Shown: piece after piece, positions 54,423 to 58,923 of the stretch
Layout of the letters: each line of letters starts with the position of its first letter
Numbering within the stretch: position 1 is the stretch's first letter
Assembly: GCF_009914315.1 (NCBI RefSeq)
Contig: NZ_CP042596.1
Span: 248,001-312,000 of the forward strand
Reading direction: 5' to 3'
Source: Granulicella sp. WH15
GTDB taxonomy: Bacteria; Acidobacteriota; Terriglobia; Terriglobales; Acidobacteriaceae
DNA length: 64,000 nt
The notes under the pieces: generated by a model
Told to the model about the DNA's origin: nothing
Seen by the model: the letters and a program-made list of their open reading frames with translations, nothing else
The model's database searches: none
Translations under genes and position numbers: made by a program

Positions 54423-55559
54423 TTACAGCTTGTAATAGTGATCCGCACCAAGAACCAGCACCAGCGTGATCGCCGCAATCGCAATCTCGCCGACAGCCCC
54501 AACCACGAACGGCTTCACGCCCTGCTTCAGTAGATCCTTCAGGTTTGTCCGCAGACCTACTCCGGCAAACGTCAGCAGAAACGCCCATCGACTCAGGTTG
54601 CCGAGCGCCGCGATCTGCGGCCGCGTAAACCCGAACGGAATCAGCGAAGCATGAACCTTCGGATCGAGCGTCCCCAGCGTAGCCAGCAGCGAGATGAACA
54701 GGAAGCCCAGCACGAACTTGGGAAACTTCTTCCAAAGAAACGCGCCCTTGTTGGTGATCTCGGCGGCCTGGCCCTTGCTGGCCCAGTAGAACGCGTAGCC
54801 CAGCACCACGAAGCCGATGGTGGCGTTCCGGCAGGTCTTGGCCAGCACGGCGAATTTGCCCGCGGCGTCGGAGTACAGCGCGCCCGCAGCCGTGGCCTCG
54901 GCGGTGTTATCGACCGCAAGCCCGGTCCACAGGCCGTAGGCGTGGTCGCTCATGTGCAGCGCGTGGCCTACCAGCGGGAAGAAGACCAGAGAGATGGCCC
55001 CCAGCGCCAGAATTGCGGCGATGGCGACGGAGGAGTCTTCCTCGTCGGCCTCGATGGCTCCCTGCGTCGCAATGATCGCCGAGACGCCGCAGACGCTCGA
55101 CCCCACGGCCAGCAGCGAGACGAGCTTCGGAGCCAGCTTGAACCCGCGTCCGAGGTACGTCATAAACGTCAACGCCAGCGCCAGCTCGATGATGATGAGG
55201 ACAAATGAGATGCCGCTCAGGTGCAGGATATCGCCGAGGATGAATCGCGCCCCCAGCAGGATAATCCCGGCCTTAAGCCAGAACTCGTATGTGGCTACCC
55301 CTGCGCGAAAGATGCGCGGCAGGCCCACGGTGTTGGCGATCACGACGCCGATCAGGATGGCCCACAGGACGTACTCGATGTTGGGCAGCACCTGGTGGTG
55401 CGCCTTGCCGTAGCGGGTAATGGACTGCTCGATGAACTTGCCCGCGTAGCCGACGACGGCCAGCAGGGCGATGCCGGGAATCAGGCCGAGCACGCCGTTG
55501 CGGTTGGCGTCGTCGCGATCCTTCACGAGCGGAAGAGGAAGGGTTGAGCTTGTAGCCAT
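54423..55559 (-). CDS. YeiH-family putative sulfate exporter (UPF0324)
   Basis: 378 residues with about 9-11 membrane helices. Family stretches are LWAILIGVVIANTVGLP, FWLKAGIILLGARF, GSSVCGVSAIIATQGAIEADEEDSSVAIA and FAGVGLRTNLKDLLKQG. The family is annotated as sulfate exporters; direct evidence is limited. AGGAGATCCATC leads ATG 55559. The 37-residue membrane peptide gene lies 12 bases upstream and a Cys-rich mini-ORF further upstream, hinting at sulfur control. Confidence 0.9.
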   Translation of the reverse strand: MATSSTLPLPLVKDRDDANRNGVLGLIPGIALLAVVGYAGKFIEQSITRYGKAHHQVLPNIEYVLWAILIGVVIANTVGLPRIFRAGVATYEFWLKAGIILLGARFILGDILHLSGISFVLIIIELALALTFMTYLGRGFKLAPKLVSLLAVGSSVCGVSAIIATQGAIEADEEDSSVAIAAILALGAISLVFFPLVGHALHMSDHAYGLWTGLAVDNTAEATAAGALYSDAAGKFAVLAKTCRNATIGFVVLGYAFYWASKGQAAEITNKGAFLWKKFPKFVLGFLFISLLATLGTLDPKVHASLIPFGFTRPQIAALGNLSRWAFLLTFAGVGLRTNLKDLLKQGVKPFVVGAVGEIAIAAITLVLVLGADHYYKL

Positions 55560-55571
55560 GATGGATCTCCT

Positions 55572-55685
55572 TTACCAGCCCACGGTTTTGATGACGCCGG
55601 TGCGGACCAGCAGCGCGAGCGCCAACGACAGCACTACGGCCCAGAGATCGAGCGAGAGAGAGAACTTACGAGCGGGGATAGACAT
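55572..55685 (-). CDS. 37-residue single-helix membrane peptide
   Basis: Starts MSIPARKFSLSLDLWAVVLS and ends RTGVIKTVGW. One membrane helix (about 12-30) with positive residues on the N-terminal side. TAGGAG lies seven bases before ATG 55685. Its stop is 12 bases before the YeiH start, so the two are one operon. It could be a small subunit or stabiliser of the transporter, as KdpF is for Kdp; that is inference. Confidence 0.72.
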   Translation of the reverse strand: MSIPARKFSLSLDLWAVVLSLALALLVRTGVIKTVGW

Positions 55686-55784
55686 AGAGGACTCCTAAGA
55701 CGGAATGGTGGCCACGCAGATCCACGTAGGGAGCAGGGCGACAGATCAGATTTTGAAAATGGCGGCGTTACTTAGAAGAGGGAA

Positions 55785-55856
55785 CTAGCAACAACAACGG
55801 TCGCAGGCGCAACCGGACATGCGGCAGGAGGAGACGAGTTGGAGGCTGCTCTGCAT
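55785..55856 (-). CDS. Cys-rich mini-ORF, candidate leader peptide
   Basis: 23 codons. Residues 11-23 are CRMSGCACDRCCC, giving six Cys, three in a row next to the stop codon. It lies 99 bases upstream of the membrane-peptide/YeiH operon on the same strand. ATG 55856 follows TATAGT by about 15 bases; an inner ATG at 55820 would give an 11-residue peptide. Neither has a strong ribosome site. Cys-rich uORFs that sense cysteine supply precede sulfur genes in mycobacteria, so an attenuator role is plausible here. Confidence 0.5.
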   Translation of the reverse strand: MQSSLQLVSSCRMSGCACDRCCC

Positions 55857-55860
55857 ATCT

Positions 55861-55876
55861 GTTGCCAGCAACTATA
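55861..55876 (-). promoter_or_regulatory. Possible promoter -10 and palindrome before the Cys-rich mini-ORF
   Basis: On the minus strand TATAGT (55876-55871) is a -10-like box. GTTGC and GCAAC (55861-55872) form a 12-bp palindrome around the expected transcription start. No good -35 is seen. Confidence 0.35.
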
Positions 55877-55904
55877 TCACTTTGAAAGGTTGCCTGCATA
55901 AAAG

Positions 55905-55998
55905 ATTCTGTCCTGCCGGACGGGCCTCCTGCGCGGAGGGCGGGCGTTTGCACGCCTTTTTACTGCTTCGCATGGTCCTCCCGCTGGTCGGAGGGAAG
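55905..55998 (-). repeat. Dispersed repeat, module B with half A (inverted)
   Basis: CTGTCCTGCCGGACGGGCC, GGGCGTTTGCACGCCTTTTT, CTGCTTCGCATGGTCCTCCC and GCTGGTCGG. It lies between the YeiH leader region and polA. Confidence 0.85.
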
Positions 55999-56028
55999 AA
56001 ATCGTCGCCGAAGTACTACCATCAGGTA

Positions 56029-58923
56029 ATGTCTGAAACTACCTCCAAGCCGCCGATCTACCTGCTCGACTCGATGGCCTTCATCTTCCGCGCTTACCAC
56101 GCGATGCAGCGGCAGCGCCCCATGTCCACGCGCACCGGCATCCCCACCGCGGCCACGTACGTCTTCGTCAACATGATCAACAAGCTGCGCAAGGACTTCC
56201 AGCCCCAGTACCTCGCGGCTATCTACGACGTCGGCGCCCCCCTGCACCGCAACGAGCTGGCCGGACAGCTCAAGGACGTGCAGAAGTTCAACATCAAGAC
56301 CCAGGCCTTCGAGGCCGTCGAGTACGGCGGCTACAAGGCCAACCGTGCCGAGACCCCGCCCGATCTCATCCAGCAGCAGCCCTACATCCGCCGCGCGCTC
56401 GAGGCCTTCCGCATCCCCATCCTCTACTACGAGGGCTTCGAGGCCGACGACGTCCTCGGCACGCTCTCCTGCCAGCTCTCGGCGCTCGGCCACCACGTCT
56501 ACGTGGTCTCGCCCGACAAAGACATGATGCAGCTCGTCAACGCGGGCGTCTCCATCCTGAACCCCACCAAGGAGAACCTCGTCCTCGACCCCGCCAAGGT
56601 GGAGGAAGTGCTGGGCGTGCCGCCCGAGCGCGTGGTGGACGTGATGGCCCTGCGCGGCGACTCGATCGACAACATCCCCGGTGCGCCCGGCATCGGCGAC
56701 AAGGGCTCGGTCGAACTCATCCAGACCTTCGGCACCGTCGAGGCCGCGCTCGACCGCGCCGCCGAGGTGAAGAAGAAAACGTATCGGGAATCGTTACAAA
56801 ATAACCGCGAGAACATCCTCCTCTCGAAGGAGCTGGTAACGATCCACACCACGGTTCCCATCGTCTACTCGCTCGACGAGATGCGCACCCAGCCGGTCGA
56901 TAACGCCGCCTGCCGCGACCTCTTCACCGAGCTGGAGTTCACGACGCTGCTCAAGGAACTGGCCCCGTCGGTCGACAACACGGTCCTCACCTACAGCCTC
57001 AAGCCCAGCCCCGCCGAGATCGCCACTCTCCTCGCCGAAGCCCGCACCACCGGCCTCGCCCTGGCGGTCTTCGAAGACGCCCGCGCCCTCTCCGAGGAGG
57101 TTGCAGCCGACTCCAGCGACACCGAATCCGAGCCGCCTCCAGCCGAAAACATGTCCCTCTTCGGCATCACGCCCGAGCCGGAGGCCCCCGCGCCGACGCC
57201 GCAAGACCTCACCCTCCGCCTGGGCCTCGCCACCTCCCCCACCGCCGCCATCGAAGTCCCCCTCGACGCCCCCGGCATCCGCGCCGCCCTCACCGACCCC
57301 GCTCTCCCCAAGCAGGTCCACGACCTCAAAGCCGTCCTCCGCGCCCTGTCCCCGCACGGCGTCGAGCTGGCCGGCCCCATCACCGACGTGATGCTCCTGA
57401 GCTACCTCGTCAACCCCACCCACGGCTCGCATACCCTGCCCGACATCGCCGCCCGCGCCACCAGCCGCGCCCTCATCCACCAGCCGACGAAGGACAACCC
57501 CGCCGATCCCAACCGCCTGCCCGAGGCCGCCGCGGCCATCGTCCGCCTCGCCGAAGCCCTCGCCACCCAGGTAGCCGAGGCCGCGCCGGTCCAGCACCAG
57601 ATCCCCGAGGATAAGCCCGAACTGGGAGGAGCCGTCACCACGGAGATGCTCTTCCCGGAGAAGGCTGAGGCTCCTCAAAAAGCCTCCGAAGACCACTCCC
57701 TCCTCAACGTCTACACCACCATCGACCTCCCCTTGGTCCCGGTCCTGCTACGCATGGAGCAGACCGGCGTTCGCATCGACCCGGTCTTCCTGAGCGATAT
57801 GTCCTCCCGCCTCGCAGTCGAGGTCGACAACCTCGCCGAGCGCATCTACACCGACTCCGGCCACCGCTTCAACATCAACTCCCCCAAGCAGCTCGGCGAG
57901 ATCCTCTTCAACCAGATGGGCCTGCCCAAGCCGATGAAGTACGGCAAGGGCAAGGTCGTCTCCACCGCGCAGGACGTGCTCGAAGAGCTGGCCGAAAACC
58001 ATCCCATCGCGGCGCTGGTCATCGAGCACCGCCAGCTCCAGAAGCTCAAGGGCACCTACCTCGACGCGCTCCCGCAGCTAGCCGATTCCGAAGGCCGCAT
58101 CCACACCACCTTCAACCAGGTCGGCACCGCCACGGGCCGTTTGTCTTCGATCAACCCGAACCTGCAAAACATTCCTACGCGCACCCCCCTCGGCCGTGAG
58201 ATCCGCGCCGCCTTCATCGCGGCTCCCGGCAACCTGCTGATGAGCGCCGACTACTCGCAGATCGAGCTGCGCCTGATGGCCCACTTCAGCCAGGACCCGC
58301 TGCTGCTCAACGCCTACCGCACCGGCCAGGATATTCATACCTTGACCGCCGCCGAGGTCTTCGGCGTCGACGCGGCCACCATGGACAAGGAGACCCGCGC
58401 CCGCGCCAAGGCCGTCAACTTCGGCATCGTCTACGGCATCAGCCCCTTCGGTCTGGCGGCGCAGCTCGGCATCGACCAGAAGGTCGCCCGCACCTACATC
58501 GAGACCTACTTCGAGCGTTACCAGGGCGTCCGCCGCTTCATAGACGAGCTGCTCGAAACGGTCCGCCGCGAGCAAGCCGTGCGCACGCACTTCGGCCGCA
58601 TCCGCCCCATCCCGGACATTGGCTCGCGCAACCCCAACATGCGCGGCTTCGCCGAGCGCACGGCGGTCAACACGCCGCTGCAAGGCACCGCCGCCGACCT
58701 CATCAAGCTGGCGATGATCACCCTCGACCGCAAGCTCACCGAGCGCAAGCTGAAGTCGAAGATGACCCTCCAGGTCCACGACGAGCTGCTCTTCGACGTA
58801 GTCCCCGAAGAGGCCGAGGAGCTACAGGCCCTGGTCAAGCACGAGATGGAGCACGTAGCCGAGTTCTCCATTCCCATCGTCGCCGAGGTGGGCCTCGGCC
58901 AGAACTGGCGCGACATCAAATAA
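56029..58923 (+). CDS. polA: DNA polymerase I
   Basis: 964 residues. The 5' nuclease domain (1-300) has YLLDSMAFIFRAYHAM, YEGFEADDVLGTL, SPDKDMMQLV and LRGDSIDNIPGAPGIGDKG. A central exonuclease-like domain (about 320-610) lacks the catalytic DxE (the stretch reads GLALAVFEDARAL), so proofreading is probably lost. The polymerase domain (620-964) has GRLSSINPNLQNIPTRTPLG, SADYSQIELRLMAH, RAKAVNFGIVYGISPFGLA and LQVHDELLFDV. ATG 56029 fits; the ORF extends upstream into a repeat. Confidence 0.97.
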   Translation: MSETTSKPPIYLLDSMAFIFRAYHAMQRQRPMSTRTGIPTAATYVFVNMINKLRKDFQPQYLAAIYDVGAPLHRNELAGQLKDVQKFNIKTQAFEAVEYGGYKANRAETPPDLIQQQPYIRRALEAFRIPILYYEGFEADDVLGTLSCQLSALGHHVYVVSPDKDMMQLVNAGVSILNPTKENLVLDPAKVEEVLGVPPERVVDVMALRGDSIDNIPGAPGIGDKGSVELIQTFGTVEAALDRAAEVKKKTYRESLQNNRENILLSKELVTIHTTVPIVYSLDEMRTQPVDNAACRDLFTELEFTTLLKELAPSVDNTVLTYSLKPSPAEIATLLAEARTTGLALAVFEDARALSEEVAADSSDTESEPPPAENMSLFGITPEPEAPAPTPQDLTLRLGLATSPTAAIEVPLDAPGIRAALTDPALPKQVHDLKAVLRALSPHGVELAGPITDVMLLSYLVNPTHGSHTLPDIAARATSRALIHQPTKDNPADPNRLPEAAAAIVRLAEALATQVAEAAPVQHQIPEDKPELGGAVTTEMLFPEKAEAPQKASEDHSLLNVYTTIDLPLVPVLLRMEQTGVRIDPVFLSDMSSRLAVEVDNLAERIYTDSGHRFNINSPKQLGEILFNQMGLPKPMKYGKGKVVSTAQDVLEELAENHPIAALVIEHRQLQKLKGTYLDALPQLADSEGRIHTTFNQVGTATGRLSSINPNLQNIPTRTPLGREIRAAFIAAPGNLLMSADYSQIELRLMAHFSQDPLLLNAYRTGQDIHTLTAAEVFGVDAATMDKETRARAKAVNFGIVYGISPFGLAAQLGIDQKVARTYIETYFERYQGVRRFIDELLETVRREQAVRTHFGRIRPIPDIGSRNPNMRGFAERTAVNTPLQGTAADLIKLAMITLDRKLTERKLKSKMTLQVHDELLFDVVPEEAEELQALVKHEMEHVAEFSIPIVAEVGLGQNWRDIK

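Follow-up and report, generated by a model that had tools for sequence, protein, structure and literature searches.

The question raised by this locus is whether a very short, cysteine-rich reading frame located upstream of a transporter gene in Granulicella sp. WH15 serves as a regulatory leader and, if so, what it would sense and how it would act. The locus is on the minus strand of the window, by which we mean the whole stretch of 64,000 nucleotides that was analysed. The leader ORF (55785..55856, minus) reads from 55856 to 55785 as an ATG, 22 further codons and a TAG, and encodes MQSSLQLVSSCRMSGCACDRCCC, a peptide of 23 codons with six Cys. The last residues are CCC and the stop codon follows immediately; no Shine-Dalgarno sequence precedes the ORF, and both its place and the Cys run recur in relatives. 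Use of an alternative in-frame TTG would give a peptide of 28 amino acids, but this codon begins at 55871, on the final nucleotide of the predicted -10 element described below. The leader stop is separated by 99 nt (55784-55686, minus) from the ATG of a 37-aa ORF (55572..55685, minus) that has the Shine-Dalgarno sequence AGGAG at 55692..55696 (minus) and encodes a single-helix membrane microprotein without a Pfam family. At 55559, 12 nt past the stop of this ORF, starts a gene for a 378-aa transporter of family PF03601 (Cons_hypoth698 / YeiH-like; 54423..55559, minus). The first-pass annotation of this DNA had described a 23-codon ORF with six Cys, CCC before the stop and 99 bases between it and the operon, and this description was confirmed. 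Within the window the leader exceeds chance: among 5000 dinucleotide shuffles of positions 55686-56035 (350 nt), none gave a short ORF (at most 30 aa) with six Cys and 10 gave one with at least five. In the window as a whole, at least five Cys occur in 9 of the 404 short ORFs of 10-35 aa, the leader itself among them, and because of these eight other Cys-rich ORFs the comparison across loci had to decide.

The transporter matches PF03601 with an E-value of 1.4e-74 and 251.2 bits, well above the gathering cut-off of 24.5, whereas it scores 101.7 bits with the NCBI YeiH model TIGR00698, for which the cut-off is 232.6. On these scores the protein is a relative of YeiH rather than a certified YeiH. 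According to the available text of PMC12880088, Salmonella YeiH protects from sulfite, with its transport activity being unproven, and is under the control of YeiE, a sulfite sensor. The two are membrane proteins of the same broad family tied to sulfur anions, but the window protein does not reach the cut-off of TIGR00698 and is accompanied by a microprotein. This microprotein has the consensus LSLDxWAVxLALxLALLVRxGxxKxVP, with W most often next, and an ORF related to it (alignment score of at least 50) occurs in 91 of the 98 loci compared below, with or without a leader; it is a candidate subunit of the transporter.

For the comparison, the transporter was searched in 120 genomes of the family, which gave a match in 74; in 24 of these, the Granulicella genome itself included, the relative is close and nearly complete (58-100 % identical). 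A scan of genome contigs added 80 loci, the best 80 of 143. The initial set of 111 loci was reduced to 98 by removal of 7 YeiH matches that were distant or partial, 3 loci with less than 420 nt upstream and 3 duplicates, and omission of 7 loci without a microprotein anchor and 1 that was too short left 90. Among the 7 unanchored loci are L032 and L033, two very close relatives that both show poly-Cys ORFs. Between -520 and -100 of the transporter match, a poly-Cys ORF is present in 49 of the 98 loci, as compared to 7 on the reverse strand and 5.2 in shuffles. An anchored rule, requiring an ORF of 10-70 codons with at least three Cys in six codons in the 380 nt upstream of the microprotein ORF, gave 48 of 90 loci; the reverse strand gave 5 of 90, and the mean of the shuffles was 3.8. 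With at least four Cys in six codons the corresponding numbers for the 90 loci are 14, 0 and 0.13. When the same count was made for each amino acid in 89 loci, Cys was found in 48 as compared to 3.8 in shuffles, a 12.6-fold enrichment. The ratios for A, G, L, P, R, S, T and V were 0.89-1.29; the other amino acids are represented by few counts, Met (4 of 89 vs 0.3) being the only other one with a large ratio. Elsewhere within the same loci, 28 of 924 windows of sequence passed the Cys rule. Loss of the Cys codons or of their frame in relatives, on which the first-pass annotation proposed to abandon the leader, is thus not what was found. The idea that the ORF arose by chance or from a repeat, TGT microsatellites merely happening to read as Cys, can draw on the low complexity of TGT runs and on the Cys-rich short ORFs elsewhere in the window, but it accounts neither for the excess over reverse strand and shuffles nor for the specificity for Cys and for this position, and we consider it extremely improbable.

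The leader is not universal. The poly-Cys rule is failed by 42 of the 90 loci, and no credible leader was seen in L042, L062, L060 and L054 (Terriglobus roseus), some of which are close relatives; weaker versions of the leader are present in further close relatives. A YeiH tree with 90 rows shows leaders on deep as well as shallow branches, with 9 changes as compared to 29 in shuffles. The leader set used for this tree consisted of 44 of the 48 rule-positive loci and 8 weaker ones recognised by eye, L011, L019, L054 and L091 having been removed as implausible. Four loci (L032, L069, L099 and L104) are on contigs labelled Rhodanobacteraceae, Verrucomicrobia, Betaproteobacteria and Rhodospirillales; their yeiH regions resemble those of Acidobacteriota, and these metagenome-assembled genomes are perhaps mis-binned or mislabelled.

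In 12 loci of the Edaphobacter/Granulicella type the leader forms an island of conservation, with a mean identity of 0.79 as compared to 0.25 (-80..-30) and 0.39 (-30..-1) in front of it and 0.33 past its stop. Beyond this group the Cys run is the sole leader feature that is kept. The exact motif CxCxxCCC, whose conservation the earlier annotation had proposed to check, does not hold across relatives and was rejected as a conserved element. For closer inspection a set of 41 leaders was curated by hand (36 of the 48 rule-positive loci and 5 weak ones), taking as start the ATG that gives about 21 codons, with six starts chosen by eye. Their Cys codons are 131 TGT and 27 TGC; the yeiH-like genes behind them have 3 TGT and 77 TGC, and TGT is also the rarer codon (36, as compared to 126 TGC) in the 35 long ORFs of the window. 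Unlike its TGT-rich relatives, the leader of the window itself has 2 TGT and 4 TGC. The Cys run ends at most three codons from the stop in 31 of the 41 leaders; in the remaining 10 it lies further in or is interrupted.

Such peptides could in principle be sensors themselves, in that the nascent Cys-rich chain would bind a metal or react with sulfite or oxidants and thereby arrest the ribosome. Compatible with this proposal is the place of a Cys-rich peptide ahead of a gene with a relative in Salmonella that confers protection from sulfite (PMC12880088, available text). However, the number of Cys varies from 2 to 9, their spacing is variable without a common motif, and what recurs are TGT runs beside the stop; furthermore, like leaders precede some cysK and moeZ genes (see below), to which cysteine supply is the better fit. 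A sensing peptide is therefore improbable.

How would translation of the leader begin? In 34 of the 41 curated leaders a -10-like box, defined as a hexamer with at least four matches to TATAAT, is located 5-12 nt ahead of the ATG; for six windows of the same width further upstream the corresponding counts are 1-12 of 41. An SD-like motif precedes the ATG in 3 of 41. Because of this the leader ORF is probably leaderless or nearly so: transcription would start at its ATG or a few nucleotides before. Such a start would explain the absence of a ribosome site, which the first-pass annotation had recorded as a weakness; the absence itself was observed, and it is probably a feature. In the window, the predicted extended -10 element TGA-TATAGT (55871..55879, minus) is 14 nt before the leader ATG, the 5' UTR predicted from it is about 7 nt long, and the locus is one of the 7 of 41 outside the 5-12 nt range. 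For three genomes of Acidobacteria, an average of 13 % leaderless genes was predicted, as stated in the available text of PMC3160421.

The composition of the spacer differs with the position of the Cys run. In the 31 leaders with a near-stop run, the pyrimidine fraction is 0.78 at +1..+12 past the stop (C 0.45, G 0.14) vs 0.62 at +13..+60; in the other 10 it is 0.54 and the tract is absent. Two layouts can thus be distinguished, with the Cys run beside the stop and a pyrimidine tract (31 loci) or with the run further in and no tract (10 loci). All 41 spacers taken together are C-rich and G-poor (C 0.35, G 0.16); the sequence ahead of the leaders has C 0.30 and G 0.25. In the window the tract is TTCCCTCTTCTA (55773..55784, minus), which adjoins the leader stop and is a candidate Rho-loading or ribosome-shielded element; a C-rich, G-poor stretch that begins at the leader stop, as in Rho-dependent regulation of the tnaC type, is thus present. 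In tnaC of E. coli, free tryptophan is sensed via the nascent chain, and the stalled ribosome covers a tract beside the leader stop and keeps Rho off. Here too a stalled ribosome would cover the tract beside the stop and block Rho, but the runs of Cys codons suggest sensing of tRNA.

RNA structure was considered as the basis of control as well. A small hairpin, CUACG-8nt-CGUGG (55712..55729, minus), lies ahead of the ribosome site of the microprotein ORF; it is weak in the window, with a probability of 0.01-0.57 that varies with ribosome position, and stronger in several relatives. The folding z-score of the spacer is +0.32 in the window and on average -1.42 over the 41 loci, which is somewhat better than shuffles. 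In transcription attenuation of the trp type, an intrinsic terminator would be located between leader and operon, and a stalled ribosome would favour an antiterminator in its place. As in trp/ilv-type attenuators, the leader is rich in the amino acid that would be regulated, and a hairpin with U-run follows the leader in five loci, namely in L016, L017 and L018 by rule (3 of 41 vs 0.58 in shuffles) and in L023 and L024 by eye, where the hairpin probability is 0.99-1.00. All five belong to the 10 leaders without a near-stop run, and the rule detected no intrinsic terminator at the window locus or in the 31 near-stop leaders. In none of the five did any stall position abolish the hairpin, its lowest probability being 0.64 (L018). 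An antiterminator switch was rejected after imposed stalling in 15 loci, in which no stall position consistently dissolved hairpins; unlike in the trp/ilv systems, no mutually exclusive antiterminator was found. The trp scheme is fairly unlikely.

Control could alternatively act on translation, with a spacer that hides the Shine-Dalgarno sequence of the microprotein ORF unless the leader ribosome stalls, in the style of mycobacterial uORFs. The pyrimidine tract past the leader stop could pair with GGAG, and translational attenuation is the term used for the cysteine genes of M. smegmatis in the available part of PMC13236596. The downstream pairing that the first-pass annotation had proposed to check was looked for in 40 of the 41 curated leaders and did not appear, the unpaired fraction of the ribosome site being 0.19 as compared to 0.18 in shuffles (thermodynamic folding only; Wilcoxon p 0.16). 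A simulated stalled ribosome exposed the site by more than 0.2 in 1 of the 40 loci, with p 0.055 for the gain relative to shuffles. Sequestration of the ribosome site was rejected on these grounds, and translational attenuation is unlikely. A riboswitch was also rejected, as the Rfam search of the locus gave no family above its gathering score; the single match, to a Tetrahymena snoRNA with an E-value of 4.1, is far below it.

The interpretation that we favour, and to which we assign a probability of roughly 0.8 on sequence comparison, is that the leader is a cysteine-responsive attenuator of the microprotein and transporter genes. Attenuation by a Cys-rich leader had been proposed in the first-pass annotation, and the recurrence across loci and the specific enrichment of Cys support it. 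A ribosome would translate the short leader, of which the end is a run of Cys codons. With plentiful Cys-tRNA it would complete the leader and depart, and the free C-rich, G-poor spacer would lead to an early stop of transcription or a silent operon. With Cys-tRNA being scarce the ribosome would stall on the Cys run and its footprint would shield the tract past the stop; the genes for the microprotein and the transporter would then be expressed. In the Granulicella genome neither an intrinsic terminator nor a masked ribosome site would be the effector, but Rho; by analogy with tnaC, a Rho-type mechanism in which the stalled ribosome shields the tract fits best. We infer translation of the leader, stalling, the sign of the response and Rho as effector from these comparisons. 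Against an attenuator count that no switch was found, that the hairpin of the window is weak and lacks a visible terminator, and that the -10 box of the window is outside the common range. A gene annotated as exporter is also an odd target under cysteine starvation.

Poly-Cys leaders also precede other genes. In the Granulicella genome (C1:3255740-3255829), MTLHYPTRCRCCCLGSCPGRRSCCCCRCL followed by a stop is encoded ahead of an apparent cysO-moeZ operon, consisting of a small sulfur-carrier-like gene (cysO/MoaD by reading) and a moeZ-type gene, and the ATG of this leader has TAGAAT 9 nt in front of it; the moeZ-type protein is 72 % identical to that of L191. Another leader, MNRIVNIPCSRFANDLGCCCR with its stop, is located 109 nt upstream of an ABC operon that includes an SsuA-like binding protein (TIGR01728 E 4e-21, below cut-off); judged by eye, the promoter of this leader does not resemble the leaderless type. 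Of the 120 family genomes, only this one gave a match to the SsuA-like protein (E 1e-40). The SsuA-like operon is part of a cluster (L154) in which one poly-Cys leader (5162-5097, minus) precedes this operon and another (2300-2235, minus) a TonB-type receptor. Weaker cases in the Granulicella genome are leaders before outer-membrane receptors (Pfam assignment for three) and an M14 peptidase. The 15-mer TGTTGTTGTCGCTRR occurs 24 times in the 120 genomes, as compared to 10 times for the backwards control. In 4 of the 24 matches TGG replaces the stop, and 11 are the end of an ORF that begins with ATG and has no more than 50 aa. The targets of these 11 are six genes of the ThiF/MoeB type (that of L191 assigned by HMM, the other five by protein start), two yeiH genes, one cysK, the M14 peptidase mentioned above and one gene for a protein without Pfam family. 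In L183 the leader ORF overlaps the preceding sulfur-carrier-like gene.

In relatives, a poly-Cys ORF precedes moeZ in 9 of 29 loci and cysK in 6 of 22, with none on the reverse strand in either case; 1 of 30 moeZ loci and 9 of 31 cysK loci were omitted from these counts, the gene start having been missed by the motif, and 3 of the 9 and 1 of the 6 were first met via the leader pattern. Of the six cysK leaders we judged four convincing (L199, L272, L276 and L288). Most moeZ (20 of 29) and cysK loci (16 of 22) have no leader. The Granulicella genome has no close relative of the leader-bearing CysK, and no leader was seen before its PALP genes (8 of 9 matches examined). The targets thus include genes of sulfur and cysteine metabolism (moeZ, cysK, the SsuA-like operon and the yeiH-like genes), and also receptors, the M14 peptidase and the protein without Pfam family. 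A Cys ORF before the NIR_SIR gene of the Granulicella genome (MHWTRSIKGMDSRFALAYCTHCCRGFMRYRNASIF) was not counted, as it has no Cys run beside its stop. The broad pattern TGYTGYTGYNNNTRR gave 136 matches in this genome, about 100 places being among the matches listed, as compared to 37 for the backwards control; it is too unspecific to be evidence of a leader by itself and served as a pointer only. Strings resembling TGCTGTTGCTTCTGG recur across the same genome and are perhaps a dispersed repeat.

The gene neighbourhood of the microprotein-transporter pair was compared between loci with and without a leader. In at least 18 of the 38 loci without a leader (a motif count, which misses some), the pair is found behind a gene for uroporphyrinogen-III methyltransferase, an enzyme that takes part in making siroheme, and where it has a leader, in 0 of 52; on independent branches this contrast is too rare for a test to carry weight, with a median p of 0.5 in a sign test. 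Among the loci without a leader, HMM searches confirmed the methyltransferase upstream of the pair in L083, L084, L089, L098 and L101; three of these (L084, L089 and L101) also have siroheme synthase domains, and a NIR_SIR reductase was detected in L089, L093 and L098. The reductase is NirA-like by NCBIfam, below cut-off, and could act on sulfite or nitrite. In the Granulicella genome, NIR_SIR and methyltransferase genes adjoin each other elsewhere, with no yeiH in the 8 kb examined around them. This genome (G000) gave no match to PF01507 (CysH/CysD) or PF01747 (ATP sulfurylase), and the usual route of sulfate assimilation seems to be absent; sulfite from organosulfur compounds is therefore a plausible intermediate. 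At the yeiH locus of L063, the upstream protein end resembles the cysteine desulfurase SufS and a downstream gene an Rrf2 regulator, both judged by eye.

Cysteine leaders of this kind are known from Actinobacteria. The available text of PMC1262725 describes their prediction in 2005 for the cys operons of Mycobacterium and Propionibacterium acnes and for cbs of Bifidobacterium longum, with Rho being suggested from poly-pyrimidine motifs in the spacer and no conserved terminator. The leaders described here share with these the Cys runs near the stop, the lack of a conserved terminator and the pyrimidine-rich spacer; the motifs were not conserved there, as far as that text goes, whereas here a tract past the stop recurs in the near-stop leaders. 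Cysteine leaders were visible in mycobacterial ribosome profiles in 2015 (PMC4633059, available text), and Canestrari et al. 2020, as cited in the accessible parts of PMC9031893, PMC9094748 and PMC13236596, tested the poly-cysteine leaderless short ORFs of mycobacteria. These are likewise short, leaderless-looking ORFs with contiguous Cys codons upstream of sulfur or cysteine genes. They differ in belonging to another phylum, the codons being TGT-biased here and the leaders of the two phyla having been compared without alignment, and in their targets, which are here yeiH-like genes with a microprotein, moeZ, cysK and an SsuA-like operon. For Acidobacteria, PMC4833913 gives counts of leader genes of all kinds, the word cysteine being absent from its available text, and no report of cysteine-codon attenuation in Acidobacteriota was found in the open-licence literature (compare the accessible part of PMC2965389, 2010). 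Cysteine-codon attenuation in Actinobacteria is thus known, and the phylum, the targets and the layout are new.

A broader hypothesis, which we put forward tentatively as somewhat short of even odds, is that Acidobacteriota possess a cysteine-attenuation regulon of leaderless poly-Cys micro-ORFs that evolved apart from the actinobacterial one. The PF03601 branch, with the microprotein as a subunit, would then serve sulfur acquisition or sulfite handling under cysteine shortage and not sulfate export, and two engines, a Rho-like tract beside the stop and an intrinsic terminator further down, would have been swapped under one sensor. As such leaders can be spotted by eye, they offer a means of linking genes to sulfur supply in a phylum that is widespread in soil, among them genes for outer-membrane receptors and for uncharacterised transporters. 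They also make the direction of transport by the YeiH relative testable, since an exporter would be expected to be off, not on, once cysteine is exhausted. For the organisms themselves, the leader is probably a built-in gauge which matches a sulfur-linked transporter, and in some of them cysteine-making genes, to the supply of cysteine.
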